DNA of 8,512 bases, taken from Desulfobacterales bacterium (GTDB lineage Bacteria; Desulfobacterota; Desulfobacteria; Desulfobacterales; UBA2174_A). Position 1 is the stretch's first letter. Every line of letters starts with the position of its first letter. The position numbers and the translations under genes are program-made. Below are positions 5,230 through 8,512 of this stretch, one piece after another. The DNA lies in contig JALOPD010000174.1 of the NCBI GenBank assembly GCA_025454075.1, positions 1 through 8,512 on the forward strand, in the 5' to 3' direction. The notes under the pieces are model-generated. The model was not told the origin of the DNA. It saw only the letters and a program-made list of their open reading frames with translations, and did not search any database.

Positions 5230-5946
5230 ATGAGGGAATTCACACCGGAGGAGCTGGCGTCCTTCAACGGCGAAAACGGGAAGCCGGTTTACATCGCCCA
5301 CGAGGGCAAGGTGTACGACGTCAGCGCCAGCAAAATGTGGAAGACCGGAACGCACATGAAGCGGCACCGCTCCGGCCAGGACCTCACCACCGACATCCAG
5401 GGGGCCCCCCACACACCGGAGGTGCTCGAACGCTTCCCCCAGGTGGGCATGCTCAAGGCGGAGAACGCAGCCGAAGACCCGCGCGTGCCCCCGGCCCTGG
5501 CCGCGCTGATCCGGACCTTTCCCTTCCTGCGGCGGCACCCGCATCCGATGACCGTGCACTTCCCGATCGTGTTCATGTTCTCCACCACGGTCTTCAGCCT
5601 GCTCTATCTCGTCACCGGGGAGAAATCCTTCGACACCACGGCGTTTCACTGCCTGGGGGCGGGGGTGGTCTTCAACGTCATCGGGATCGCGACCGGCTTC
5701 TACACCTGGTGGCTCAATTACATGGCCAAACCGTTGAACCCGGTCAAAATCAAGATCCCGCTCACCCTGGCCATGCTGATCACCTCGATCGTCCTTTTCG
5801 TCTGGCGGCTGGAGGCCCCGAACATTCTGGATGCGCTCAGCGGCGCCGGGCTCCTTTACATCTTGCTCGTGCTGTCGCTGTCGGCGATGGTGACCGTCAT
5901 CGGCTGGAACGGGGCGTCGATGACGTTCCCGGTCGAAAAAGAATAG
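5230..5946 (+). CDS. Cytochrome b5-like heme domain fused to DUF2231 membrane domain
   Basis: The 238-residue protein has two parts. Residues 1-75 form a compact cytochrome b5-like domain: FTPEELASFNG, then PVYIAHEGKVYDVSASKMW, then HMKRHRSGQDLT (H42, H46), and APHTPEVLERFPQVG (H61). H61 and one of H42/H46 are the likely axial heme ligands; the usual HPGG motif is missing. A proline-rich linker leads to HPHPMTVHFP (103-112), characteristic of DUF2231, and four hydrophobic helices at about 108-128, 139-161, 176-194 and 207-226. There is no signal peptide, so the heme domain is probably cytoplasmic. The start is ATG at 5230, with GAGGAG about five bases upstream; an ATG at 5225 is out of frame and stops at once. 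Known b5 domains transfer single electrons, and DUF2231 function is unknown. A membrane electron-transfer protein is a reasonable inference, with the partner unidentified. Confidence 0.85.
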   Translation: MREFTPEELASFNGENGKPVYIAHEGKVYDVSASKMWKTGTHMKRHRSGQDLTTDIQGAPHTPEVLERFPQVGMLKAENAAEDPRVPPALAALIRTFPFLRRHPHPMTVHFPIVFMFSTTVFSLLYLVTGEKSFDTTAFHCLGAGVVFNVIGIATGFYTWWLNYMAKPLNPVKIKIPLTLAMLITSIVLFVWRLEAPNILDALSGAGLLYILLVLSLSAMVTVIGWNGASMTFPVEKE

Positions 5947-5977: not shown

Positions 5978-6072
5978 ATACTCGATTGTTTGCGGGATGA
6001 CTGTCAGGCCCTGGCGCGACTGGACGATAGGGGAAAAAGCGAGGCGAATTGATTCACACAAAAACCGTTTTC

Positions 6073-6123
6073 AAATAAACCATCCCCGCCCTTCGGGGCG
6101 GGGATGGTTTATTTGTTTTTTTT
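6073..6123. terminator. Strong intrinsic terminator with UUCG tetraloop, probably bidirectional
   Basis: A perfect 19-pair stem joins 6073-6091 and 6096-6114, with TTCG at 6092-6095 closed by C-G, the very stable cUUCGg tetraloop. On the plus strand it is followed by one G and eight T (6116-6123), a textbook intrinsic terminator for the UbiA-b5 operon. It also sits seven bases beyond the stop of the convergent minus-strand gene. The A/T pairs at the stem base give that strand TTTATTT, so it can plausibly stop both transcripts. The T-tract overlaps the last bases of the minus-strand stop codon. Confidence 0.93.
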
Positions 6124-6652
6124 ACTTTTTCTTTTTTCCGGGTGCCGGCGGCTTCTCGCGGATGGGGTAACCCTTGACCTTGGCGACCTTGGTGAAAGTG
6201 GGAGCGTGGGTGTAGATGACCCCGTAGAAGCTATTTCCCTTGTACAAAGTCGCCTTGGTGTTGCCGAGCAGCCACGTCGAGGTTTTGGCACTTGAAGATT
6301 TGGGTTGTCCGTGCGTTTTCACGAGCTCATTTTTCAGATGGTCGAACGAGACGATCCGAGGGTCGAAATAGGCGGCCCCGAAATAGAATTTATTATCGAA
6401 AAAGCCGAATGAAGAAGATGTTGCGGCGATGCCGTTGAAGGTCTTCTCTTTGCCAAACAGAGTGCTTTCGTTCGCGAGTTTATCCGGCAGGGTCAGGACT
6501 TGTTCGCTGCAGATTCCCTGCTTCCGGCAATCGCCCGCGGATTGCGACCATTTCAGACCCATGAAGCCGTTTGGATCCGTGACAGCGAACGCCGCTCTTG
6601 TTGCCAAAACCGATACCATCGCAAAGAAGACGATCCACACAAAACGTTTCAT
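6122..6652 (-). CDS. Small exported protein of unknown function
   Basis: I do not recognise a named family. The 176-residue protein starts at ATG 6652, with AAAGGA seven bases upstream. An in-frame ATG 21 bases earlier lacks a ribosome binding site and would put charged residues before the signal. Residues 1-23 form a signal peptide (MKRF, hydrophobic core, then RAAFA), with cleavage likely after A23. The mature protein begins VTDPNGFMGLKWSQSAGDC. C42 and C48 could form a disulfide in the periplasm. The rest is rich in aromatic and Gly/Ser residues (FGFFDNKFYFGAAYF) and suggests a small beta-rich fold. The C-terminus is Pro/Lys-rich and ends in four lysines. It lies 53 bases after the Hint gene on the same strand and is probably in the same operon. 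Base composition is lower in GC than in the flanking metabolic genes. Confidence 0.8.
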   Translation of the reverse strand: MKRFVWIVFFAMVSVLATRAAFAVTDPNGFMGLKWSQSAGDCRKQGICSEQVLTLPDKLANESTLFGKEKTFNGIAATSSSFGFFDNKFYFGAAYFDPRIVSFDHLKNELVKTHGQPKSSSAKTSTWLLGNTKATLYKGNSFYGVIYTHAPTFTKVAKVKGYPIREKPPAPGKKKK

Positions 6653-6705
6653 CCCGTCATCCTTTCTTTTCATTTTCCGAGGGGAAGGTAGAACGGCCTT
6701 CGCTG

Positions 6706-7296
6706 CTATTTGCCGCCGCCACCGCCGCCGGTGTTGTGGACGAGGTAGTTCTCCTTATCGCCGAGCACAAAGAAGTCGTGGTGCTCTTCAACTTCCATGT
6801 TAAAAACTTCGACGTTCGCTTTGACCCATTTCTTGCTTTTCAGAGGAACCCACCCGCTTTCCGTTTTGAGGTTCATGCCGATTTCGAGATCCTGGGCCCG
6901 GATCCAGCCCTGCTCGGTCAGAAAGCGATGAAAGGCGGTAACCCGTATCTCACCGTTCAAAATGCAGTAGTGATCCTCCCTTCCTTGAAACGCCTTGAGA
7001 ACCCGTCGGTAGGTGAGCTTGCCGGTGGCCTCGTCGTATACGAGGACCTCTTCGCCGGGCAAGACGGCGGCGATGCTTTTAACCCCGCCCGCCATACGGA
7101 CCCGGGAGTCCGGAGTGAAACAGGACGGGCTGGCGGAGGACGAGGAGACTTTGCTGCTTTGTGCCATCGCTTGTTCCAGTCGAGTGCGTTCCGTTTTCAA
7201 CTCGGCGGCCTCCTGATTCAATTTGGCTATTTCCGCATCTTTTGCATTCATCATATCCCGGCAGGTGTTCATGTTGGCGTTGTGCATGGTGATCAT
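6706..7296 (-). CDS. Coiled-coil protein with a C-terminal Hint (hedgehog/intein) domain
   Basis: Reading from ATG 7296 gives 196 residues. Residues 17-46 form a charged coiled coil (NAKDAEIAKLNQEAAELK and on), followed by a Ser-rich linker. The Hint domain spans 59-188. C59 opens block A (CFTPDSRVRMAGG). GEEVLVYDEATG is at 81-92. Block B is VTAFHRFLTEQGWIRAQDL, with T120 and H123 as the TxxH pair. Block F is VEVFNMEVEEHHDFFVLG, and YLVHN ends at H187/N188. T189 follows as a possible +1 nucleophile, then a tail of six glycines and a lysine. These are the residues needed for N-S acyl shift and Asn cyclisation, so self-cleavage or splicing is plausible. It most resembles the HINT modules of polymorphic toxins, but no toxin follows. 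An upstream in-frame ATG at 7578 lies inside the neighbouring ribosome binding site and gives Arg-rich, non-protein sequence. This frame has no export signal unless joined to the lipoprotein. Confidence 0.85.
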   Translation of the reverse strand: MITMHNANMNTCRDMMNAKDAEIAKLNQEAAELKTERTRLEQAMAQSSKVSSSSASPSCFTPDSRVRMAGGVKSIAAVLPGEEVLVYDEATGKLTYRRVLKAFQGREDHYCILNGEIRVTAFHRFLTEQGWIRAQDLEIGMNLKTESGWVPLKSKKWVKANVEVFNMEVEEHHDFFVLGDKENYLVHNTGGGGGGK

Positions 7297-7562
7297 AGTG
7301 CCGACGGCATTTTGGGTCCCATCCCGGTCAATTTGCTCAATTCGAAAAAAGACTCGCGCATTTGGTTTTCGGCGGCCTCGCGCATGTCTTGAGCCAAGTT
7401 TTTCTGGTTTTCGATGGAAGCCAATTGGGAGTTTATTTCGCTCAAACGAGTCGAGGAAGGGGATGGCGCGGAACTGGTGAGGTTCCCGAGCGTGGTTTCG
7501 AGGCAAGCGGTTGTGCCGAGTGCTAAGGCCAGAACGAACATCAGGGAATAGAATCTCGACAT
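7293..7562 (-). CDS. Small coiled-coil lipoprotein overlapping the Hint gene
   Basis: The 89-codon frame starts at ATG 7562, preceded by AAAGGAG with a six-base spacer. Residues 1-20 are a lipoprotein signal, MSRFYSLMFVLALALGTTAC, with C20 as the likely lipidated residue. The lipobox (TTAC) is weaker than the usual LxxC. A Ser/Pro/Thr-rich linker (about 26-39) leads to a helical, coiled-coil-like region (about 40-75) rich in Asn, Gln and Glu. The frame ends in TGA at 7295-7293, which overlaps the Hint start as ATGA. Coiled-coil character continues in the Hint frame, which suggests the two were, or still are, one protein. Either this is a separate small lipoprotein translationally coupled to the Hint gene, or it is the N-terminus of a 285-residue fusion made by a -1 shift, or the sequence carries a one-base error or mutation. 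Confidence 0.75.
   Translation of the reverse strand: MSRFYSLMFVLALALGTTACLETTLGNLTSSAPSPSSTRLSEINSQLASIENQKNLAQDMREAAENQMRESFFELSKLTGMGPKMPSAL
7344..7350 (-). promoter_or_regulatory. T TTT TTC heptamer: possible -1 frameshift site joining lipoprotein and Hint
   Basis: On the minus strand the lipoprotein codons TCT TTT TTC (7352-7344) contain T TTT TTC in the correct X XXY YYZ phase. A one-base backward slip here enters the frame that encodes the Hint domain without meeting a stop. I saw no clear downstream hairpin and no strong upstream Shine-Dalgarno-like stimulator. The same six-T run is also a likely site for a real indel or a sequencing error. Confidence 0.4.
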
Positions 7563-8034: not shown

Positions 8035-8512
8035 TCACACTTGTTTGAATATCTTCTCGAACCACTGGATGGAAGCCTCGTCGGCGATGCCCAGGCGGCG
8101 GGCCACCGCCGGCGAGAAGACCTTGAATACGGCGGTGGCCCGGGCGCAGACATCGCCCTTCGGATCGTAGATCACTCCTTCGGTGGCGGCATCGTTCTTG
8201 CCGTTGGTATCCCGCACCCGCGCCTGCGCCTCCAAATCGCCGCCGATCTGGACGGGCTTCACGAACTCCACCGTCATGCTATGGGTGAGGGCGATGCGCT
8301 TCAGCAGATGGATGGCCGACCAGCTCATGATCTCGTCCAAAATGGTGGTGAGCACGCCGCCGTGGACGATGTGGCTCCAGCCGCAGAGGTGTTCCGGCAC
8401 CTTCAGCCGCGAGTAAACGCTCTCCCCGTCGGTGAAAAAACGCATCCGCAGGCCGGAGGGGTTTGTCGGGCTGCAGCCGAAGCAGTTATGGTTTCGGCTG
8501 CTTGGCAGTTCT
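8035..8512 (-). CDS. PaaI-family hotdog-fold acyl-CoA thioesterase (runs off right edge)
   Basis: Hotdog-fold thioesterases hydrolyse acyl- or aryl-CoA thioesters in the cytoplasm. The frame stays open to the window edge, giving 158 residues here. An ATG at 8445 is internal: the residues before it, NHNCFGCSPTNPSGLRM, are the typical conserved opening of this subfamily (CFGC, then NP.GL). The real start therefore lies a few codons outside the window. The core motif HIVHGGVLTTILDEIMSW carries the HGG turn and the Asp on the long helix that form the active site. It is followed by strands SMTVEFVKPVQIGGDLEAQARV and GDVCARATAVFKVF. The acyl-CoA substrate cannot be told from sequence. Expected family length is about 150-170 residues, so only a small part is missing. 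Confidence 0.9.
   Translation of the reverse strand, partial: ELPSSRNHNCFGCSPTNPSGLRMRFFTDGESVYSRLKVPEHLCGWSHIVHGGVLTTILDEIMSWSAIHLLKRIALTHSMTVEFVKPVQIGGDLEAQARVRDTNGKNDAATEGVIYDPKGDVCARATAVFKVFSPAVARRLGIADEASIQWFEKIFKQV

Follow-up and report, generated by a model that had tools for sequence, protein, structure and literature searches.

The window locus

The window analysed here, 8,512 nucleotides (positions 1-8,512 of contig JALOPD010000174.1, assembly GCA_025454075.1) from a Desulfobacterales bacterium, carries on its minus strand an intein-like (Hint) domain and the start of a lipoprotein, which lie in two open reading frames (ORFs) in different frames (Table 1). Judged from their sequences, both parts come from a family whose members are exported coiled-coil proteins, mostly anchored by a lipid, that have a bacterial intein-like domain close to the C-terminus and, after it, a mini C-extein of the form [Thr/Ser/Cys]-(Gly/Ser)n-Lys-COOH.

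A protein search with the Hint frame returned 20 relatives, 18 of which are full length (294-307 amino acids, aa) and hold both parts in one frame; the lipoprotein start and the Hint domain therefore belong together, as the first-pass annotation of this DNA had supposed when it named a coiled-coil lipoprotein as the N-terminal partner. The closest relative, P0003, is encoded in a single frame and shares 97% identity with the Hint-frame query across 92% of its length. A by-eye comparison with the P0003 protein shows that a short stretch is missing from the window copy where the two frames meet; because the length of this stretch is not divisible by three, the copy is frameshifted. Either a real mutation or an assembly error would account for this, the copy being broken or misassembled.

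In the Pfam scan, the Hint region matched PT-HINT with 52.5 bits (cut-off 27.7) alongside weak Hint and intein matches; the PT-HINT cut-off is also passed by four related genomic loci (L003-L006). In a profile comparison the nearest solved relative was 2lwy, a bacterial intein-like (BIL) domain. All of the catalytic residues originally named could be located in the minus-strand frame, if numbering starts at the Met that is residue 22 of the frame 6706-7359(-): C59 is the codon 7120-7122, T120 and H123 lie in the TAFH block, H187-N188 end at 6733, and T189 occupies 6730-6732. The Hint module is not the end of the protein, as had been thought, since the conserved tail TGGGGGGK follows it in the window copy.

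Table 1. Features of the window discussed in the text
Feature	Position	Strand	Evidence or remarks
Lipoprotein start (P0002): signal peptide to ...GTTAC, then coiled coil; premature stop in window copy	7293..7562	-	aligns with N-terminal part of 18 full-length homologs
Second frame (P0001): remaining coiled coil, Hint domain, tail, stop codon	6706..7359	-	20 homologous proteins
Hint domain, Cys1 to final Asn	6733..7122	-	PF07591, 8.1e-14; nearest solved relative 2lwy, profile E 9.3e-12
Mini C-extein TGGGGGGK and TAG stop; +1 Thr, terminal Lys	6706..6732	-	tail form kept in 129/129 relatives
Next gene: exported protein, 176-183 aa, ending GKKKK	6122..6673	-	counterpart after the Hint gene in L001 and L002 (40-41% identity)
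Upstream 4HBT/PaaI-like thioesterase gene, cut by window edge	8035..8511	-	also upstream of the L001 Hint gene (73% identity)
Perfect 20-nucleotide inverted repeat, 4-nucleotide loop, T-run; terminator-like	6072..6115	+	between genes ending at 5946 and 6122
DUF2231 membrane region fused to cytochrome b5-like domain	5230..5946	+

A conserved family of exported Hint proteins

A profile search from six members found 130 proteins at 1e-10 or better; the best 120 of these were used, and 110 were new. Added to the 20 from the first search they gave 130 sequences, from which we removed P0022, a 289-aa metagenome protein without His-Asn in which a short piece 89% identical to the window Hint domain sits amid unrelated sequence, probably a chimeric assembly. 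The counts below refer to the remaining 129 relatives unless another scope is given; some of the genomic loci considered later are the same genes as listed proteins (e.g. L003 and P0023).

Invariant positions in the 18 close homologs are the Cys of the lipoprotein, Cys1 of the Hint domain, Thr and His of the block-B TxxH motif, His-Asn, and three Gly of the tail. In the wider set, within which Hint identity falls to 22%, Cys1, the block-F Asn, the penultimate His and the final Asn are each found in 129/129 relatives. By a simple rule 111 of the 129 have a lipobox-like Cys; about eight of the other 18 look N-truncated by eye, and the remainder carry signal peptides or anchors of other kinds, including four with a FecR domain. 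An exported, lipid-anchored coiled coil joined to a C-terminal Hint domain, proposed at first from the window alone, is thus a conserved layout. The bearer genomes are labelled Desulfobacterales, Desulfuromonadales, and Campylobacterales.

The N-terminal parts differ between loci. When an N-part profile was run against 242 genomes, it matched in three, all of them Hint proteins already included in the profile, and no Hint-less copy was seen. Matches to the Hint domain in plasmid, phage, and viral collections were partial or weak; in plasmids and phages, no match extended over 80% of the query. Among the hits listed by literature searches that covered subscription journals thinly, no description of the layout (lipoprotein coiled coil, Hint domain, Lys-ended tail) appeared. 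A tandem arrangement occurs in large proteins of the same phylum (L016, L019, L022, L023, L026), in which a first Hint domain ends ...HNKG and the second starts directly with CFLPDSP or CFL.

A short tail that ends in lysine

After His-Asn, the relatives carry a Gly/Ser-rich tail of 5-23 residues in total, in 84 different versions, and the last residue is Lys in all 129. The +1 residue is Thr in 68, Ser in 52, Cys in 7, and Gly and Tyr in one each, i.e. Thr, Ser or Cys in 127/129. Within the tails, Thr and Lys are rare (3 and 2 of 1086 interior residues, respectively), so that each end of the tail is conserved independently of the rest. Codons for the tail Gly vary, Lys is encoded by either of its codons, and all three stop codons are present.

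The first-pass annotation had described the domain as lacking a passenger. This is accurate insofar as the relatives leave no room for a toxin: a toxin-sized region after His-Asn was found in 0/129, the longest tail having 23 residues, and homologs with a lipobox-like Cys and no C-terminal effector make up most of the family. What the description missed is the His-Asn-[Thr/Ser/Cys]-(Gly/Ser)n-Lys tail itself. Pfam and one further source name the domain pretoxin or polymorphic toxin-type HINT, and the protein could on that basis descend from a polymorphic toxin whose C-terminal toxin has been lost; we regard this as highly improbable, given that the ORF stops 5-23 residues past His-Asn, always at Lys, in every relative, and that the neighbouring genes encode an exported protein with Sel1 repeats and a peptidoglycan-binding domain or a protein ending in KKKK.

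Because the protein search relied on shared five-residue words, and the patterns that yielded L001-L006 contained the tail motif, both were biased toward tailed proteins. We therefore ran a tail-free Hint profile (A5; Hint domain ending at Asn, built from seven tailed members) against genomes. At 1e-8 it matched 11/297 genomes of one phylum, two of them with E-values near 1e-50 or lower and the rest no stronger than 2e-13; at 1e-20 it matched 8/136, 9/242, 2/249, and 3/46 genomes of narrower groups. Matches at 1e-20 or better came from 23 genomes, of which 22 were examined (those of L001-L006 and 16 new ones), with G387 left out for its internal stops. Twelve of the 16 new loci end in His-Asn-[Thr/Ser/Cys]-...-Lys, from HNSK to HNTGNGGGNGDTEMERDLKRLLK, which argues against the tail being a search artefact. 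Among the remaining four, two have HNK followed by Gly and no terminal Lys, and two have no His-Asn. E-values of tailed loci extend to 4e-33 (L062, a fragment at a contig edge) and those of untailed loci begin at 1.4e-34 (L057); because the two ranges overlap, the split by E-value is close but not clean. The two distant, lipoprotein-like Hint proteins with HNK (L058, HNKGGSS; L059, HNKGGGGMS) have Lys at +1 and represent a different tail type.

We also considered the tail as a general sorting tag. The pattern GGGGK-TAA/TGA had 12 matches in 18 bearer genomes, and only the four in Hint genes lie in frames of more than 100 codons; for this pattern, which leaves TAG stops outside, no general use was seen.

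Conservation of this kind also bears on whether the domain is processed at all. The Hint domain and tail could serve unprocessed, as a static domain plus linker used in binding or display, or they could be a module in slow decay. Decay does occur: two distant loci (L057, L060) have lost His-Asn, one match (L033, in G387) has stops inside the Hint domain, and the window's own copy is frameshifted. However, all residues of the core reaction except the block-B His are near-invariant even at the lowest Hint identities in the set, and we consider the absence of any processing distinctly unlikely.

The block-B residue and a partner gene

The block-B motif divides the family. His is found in 20/129 relatives, the window's branch, and Glu in 109/129 (TxxE). 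The earlier statement that all intein-type catalytic residues are present thus applies to the window's own branch, while the full set with block-B His is restricted to those 20 relatives. Homologs lacking Cys, TxxH or His-Asn had been named as evidence against the initial proposal; such homologs exist for TxxH, but Cys1 and His-Asn are kept in all 129 relatives. The TxxE branch retains Cys1 (109/109) and Thr, Ser or Cys at +1 (107/109), with Gly at -1 in 109/109.

One explanation for this pattern is that the domain cleaves only its C-terminus: Asn cyclisation would free a Gly-rich, Lys-ended peptide, leaving a lipoprotein with a spent Hint domain, perhaps mainly in the TxxE branch. The universal His-Asn, combined with loss of the block-B His in most relatives, is consistent with this, as is the use of Asn for C-terminal cleavage by A-type BIL domains, described in PMC7765530. 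Cys1 and the +1 residue would, however, be unneeded for such cleavage, and their retention in the TxxE branch makes C-terminal cleavage alone a doubtful account of the family.

The 18 tailed genomic loci comprise ten TxxE and eight TxxH loci. At all nine TxxE loci with downstream DNA (L052, with 163 bases downstream, was left out of the count), the next gene codes for a Sel1-repeat protein that also has a PG_binding_1 domain; the nine partners are homologous to each other (22-68% identity), and their profile has no match in the eight TxxH loci or the window. The association between TxxE and partner gives a Fisher p of 4e-5 with relatedness ignored; the loci are not independent (L053 and L054 are near-identical, L001 and L002 are related), and TxxE may represent one lineage. 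L057-L060 stand outside this comparison; L060, with its decayed Hint domain, has a Sel1 neighbour without a peptidoglycan-binding domain.

At 1e-40 or better the full-length partner was found in 3/134 genomes of one order, two adjoining a Hint gene (both in the profile), and at 1e-33 in 5/389 genomes of another order, with at most six candidates scored per genome, four adjoining a Hint gene (three in the profile). Two Hint-less cassettes encode the partner followed by a small protein: a 147-aa lipoprotein ending GGGGGGC in L108 (4204-5433) and a 123-aa exported protein ending RKKTK in L114 (4471-5646). Scored with signal peptides against the N-part profile, the L108 protein exceeded all of 999 shuffles; once the first 25 residues had been taken off, 17/1999 shuffles reached its score and 1278/1995 that of the L114 protein. 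Because these proteins show little or no likeness to the N-parts of Hint-bearing proteins, only the cassette layout is suggestive, and we do not claim homology; possibly, the two are a cassette variant that lacks Hint.

In the window's branch the position after the Hint gene is taken in all three loci (window, L001, L002) by the exported protein ending in KKKK (Table 1), for which a protein search returned only the window's own protein and which has no Pfam family. The upstream thioesterase gene is part of a shared neighbourhood, and we claim no functional link for it.

Structure and comparison with known systems

In the structure models of P0003 and P0023 the Hint domain is predicted with confidence, two long helices are present, and the tail has low confidence. 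The closest solved folds of the models are 2lwy (a BIL domain of C. thermocellum) and 6y75 (BIL2 of the Tetrahymena BUBL1 locus), followed by inteins. We conclude that the family is a variant of the BIL/Hint kind whose passenger is conserved, very small, and ends in Lys.

A-type BIL domains such as 2lwy share Cys1 and His-Asn in the same fold but have no +1 nucleophile, unlike 127/129 of the relatives; the family adds the fixed Gly/Ser-Lys tail, export, and the block-B Glu of the TxxE branch. According to PMC7765530 and PMC7664689, A-type domains cleave without ligating, and BIL domains have been made to splice well by a single mutation. Class 1 inteins have Cys1, His-Asn, and Thr, Ser or Cys at +1 in common with the family, and the models align with mini-inteins from Cys1 to Asn. 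Such inteins sit in a conserved host protein, in contrast to the variable N-parts here and the absence of a Hint-less N-part copy in the genomes searched. The block-B His of such inteins is often Glu in the family; some natural inteins have no block-B His (PMC7664689), and this His is essential in many inteins with Gly at -1 (PMC6333167).

Polymorphic-toxin PT-HINT domains (PF07591) have the above-cut-off match in common with the family and differ in the toxin that follows them and in their neighbours. The sterol-recognition region of Hedgehog Hog/Hint proteins is absent, the family having at most 23 residues after the domain. BIL2 (6y75, 6tmm) is eukaryotic and has ubiquitin-like flanks, whereas the family has export, a coiled coil, and a tail of 2-23 residues. 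It forms an isopeptide bond to Lys, conjugating a ubiquitin-like domain, according to PMC8616854.

A BIL2-like transfer to a Lys amine is the main rival of splicing in this family. The Cys1 thioester would be attacked by the amine of a Lys in the protein's own tail, in another copy, or in the KKKK end of the neighbour, so that the lipoprotein is conjugated to Lys. For both models, BIL2 ranks first or second among the closest folds, and the family supplies an invariant terminal Lys on a flexible linker, with a KKKK-ended neighbour at each locus of the window's branch. A common fold, however, is no evidence for common chemistry; transfer leaves the conserved +1 residue unexplained, and the TxxE partner proteins have no terminal Lys in most loci. 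In the TxxE branch, moreover, all relatives have Gly at -1, where the block-B His is essential in some inteins (PMC6333167). On balance we consider isopeptide transfer unlikely.

The last comparison is with Braun's lipoprotein (Lpp) and OutB, which have in common with the family a lipid or membrane anchor, a helical periplasmic part, and a C-terminal Lys (PMC12274547); in our proteins these features appear as the lipobox-like Cys, the helices of the models, and the invariant terminal Lys. For OutB the same text reports that a single C-terminal Lys is necessary and sufficient for attachment to peptidoglycan. The family differs in having a Hint domain between helix and tail, and wall attachment is here putative.

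A proposed self-built tether

The simplest reading is that the lipoprotein is spliced to its Lys-ended mini-extein, since class 1 splicing requires Cys1, Asn, and a +1 nucleophile. After export, Cys1 would take the bond to the N-terminal part as a thioester, and the acyl group would pass to the +1 Thr, Ser or Cys. Asn cyclisation would then free the Hint domain, leaving the lipid-anchored coiled coil joined to a short, flexible tail whose terminal Lys could be where the product is attached, most plausibly to peptidoglycan in the manner of Braun's lipoprotein and OutB, resulting in a self-built envelope tether. We put this forward tentatively, as a possible rather than a probable course of events; the outcomes named in the first-pass annotation (release of the anchored part, thioester attachment, a cross-linked product) may each apply. 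We count for splicing the conservation of Cys1 and the +1 nucleophile even where the block-B His is Glu.

Several observations weigh against it. The 109 relatives with block-B Glu all have Gly at -1, the setting in which this His is essential in many inteins, so that the first step in the TxxE branch may be dead or partner-dependent; this branch may only cleave at Asn, or may need its partner. Four of the 16 loci found with the tail-free profile do not have the tail pattern, and the copy in the window is frameshifted. In E. coli, a terminal Lys is found in more than 20% of periplasmic proteins and lipoproteins (PMC12274547), and by itself it is therefore not telling. Nor do YkuD enzymes help: they occur in 17/18 bearer genomes but also in 52/58 sampled genomes of one order, so that their co-occurrence does not discriminate and supports wall attachment neither way.

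In the TxxE branch, the reaction may be supplied or licensed by the Sel1/peptidoglycan-binding protein encoded alongside; the neighbour in the other branch, that of the window, is the exported KKKK-ended protein. A more specific version, in our view decidedly improbable as a whole, would be a two-gene envelope system in which the exported intein-like lipoprotein joins itself, without adenosine triphosphate (ATP), either to the Lys-ended tail of its own or to the amine of a Lys, forming an outer-membrane-to-wall tether. In the TxxE branch, loss of the standard catalytic His would make the reaction dependent on the Sel1/peptidoglycan-binding partner and so restrict it to the wall.

Significance

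That the Hint domain is followed only by a short, flexible, Lys-ended tail suggests that it builds or releases a covalent tether in the cell envelope and is not a toxin carrier. Outside toxins, the roles of bacterial intein-like domains are mostly unclear. Here such a domain has retained its nucleophiles and comes with a fixed mini-substrate, to which one large branch adds a fixed partner gene; its role is therefore directly testable. If the domain does act on its own tail, it would represent an ATP-free, self-ligating envelope tether, and possibly a tool for attaching proteins through Lys in the periplasm.
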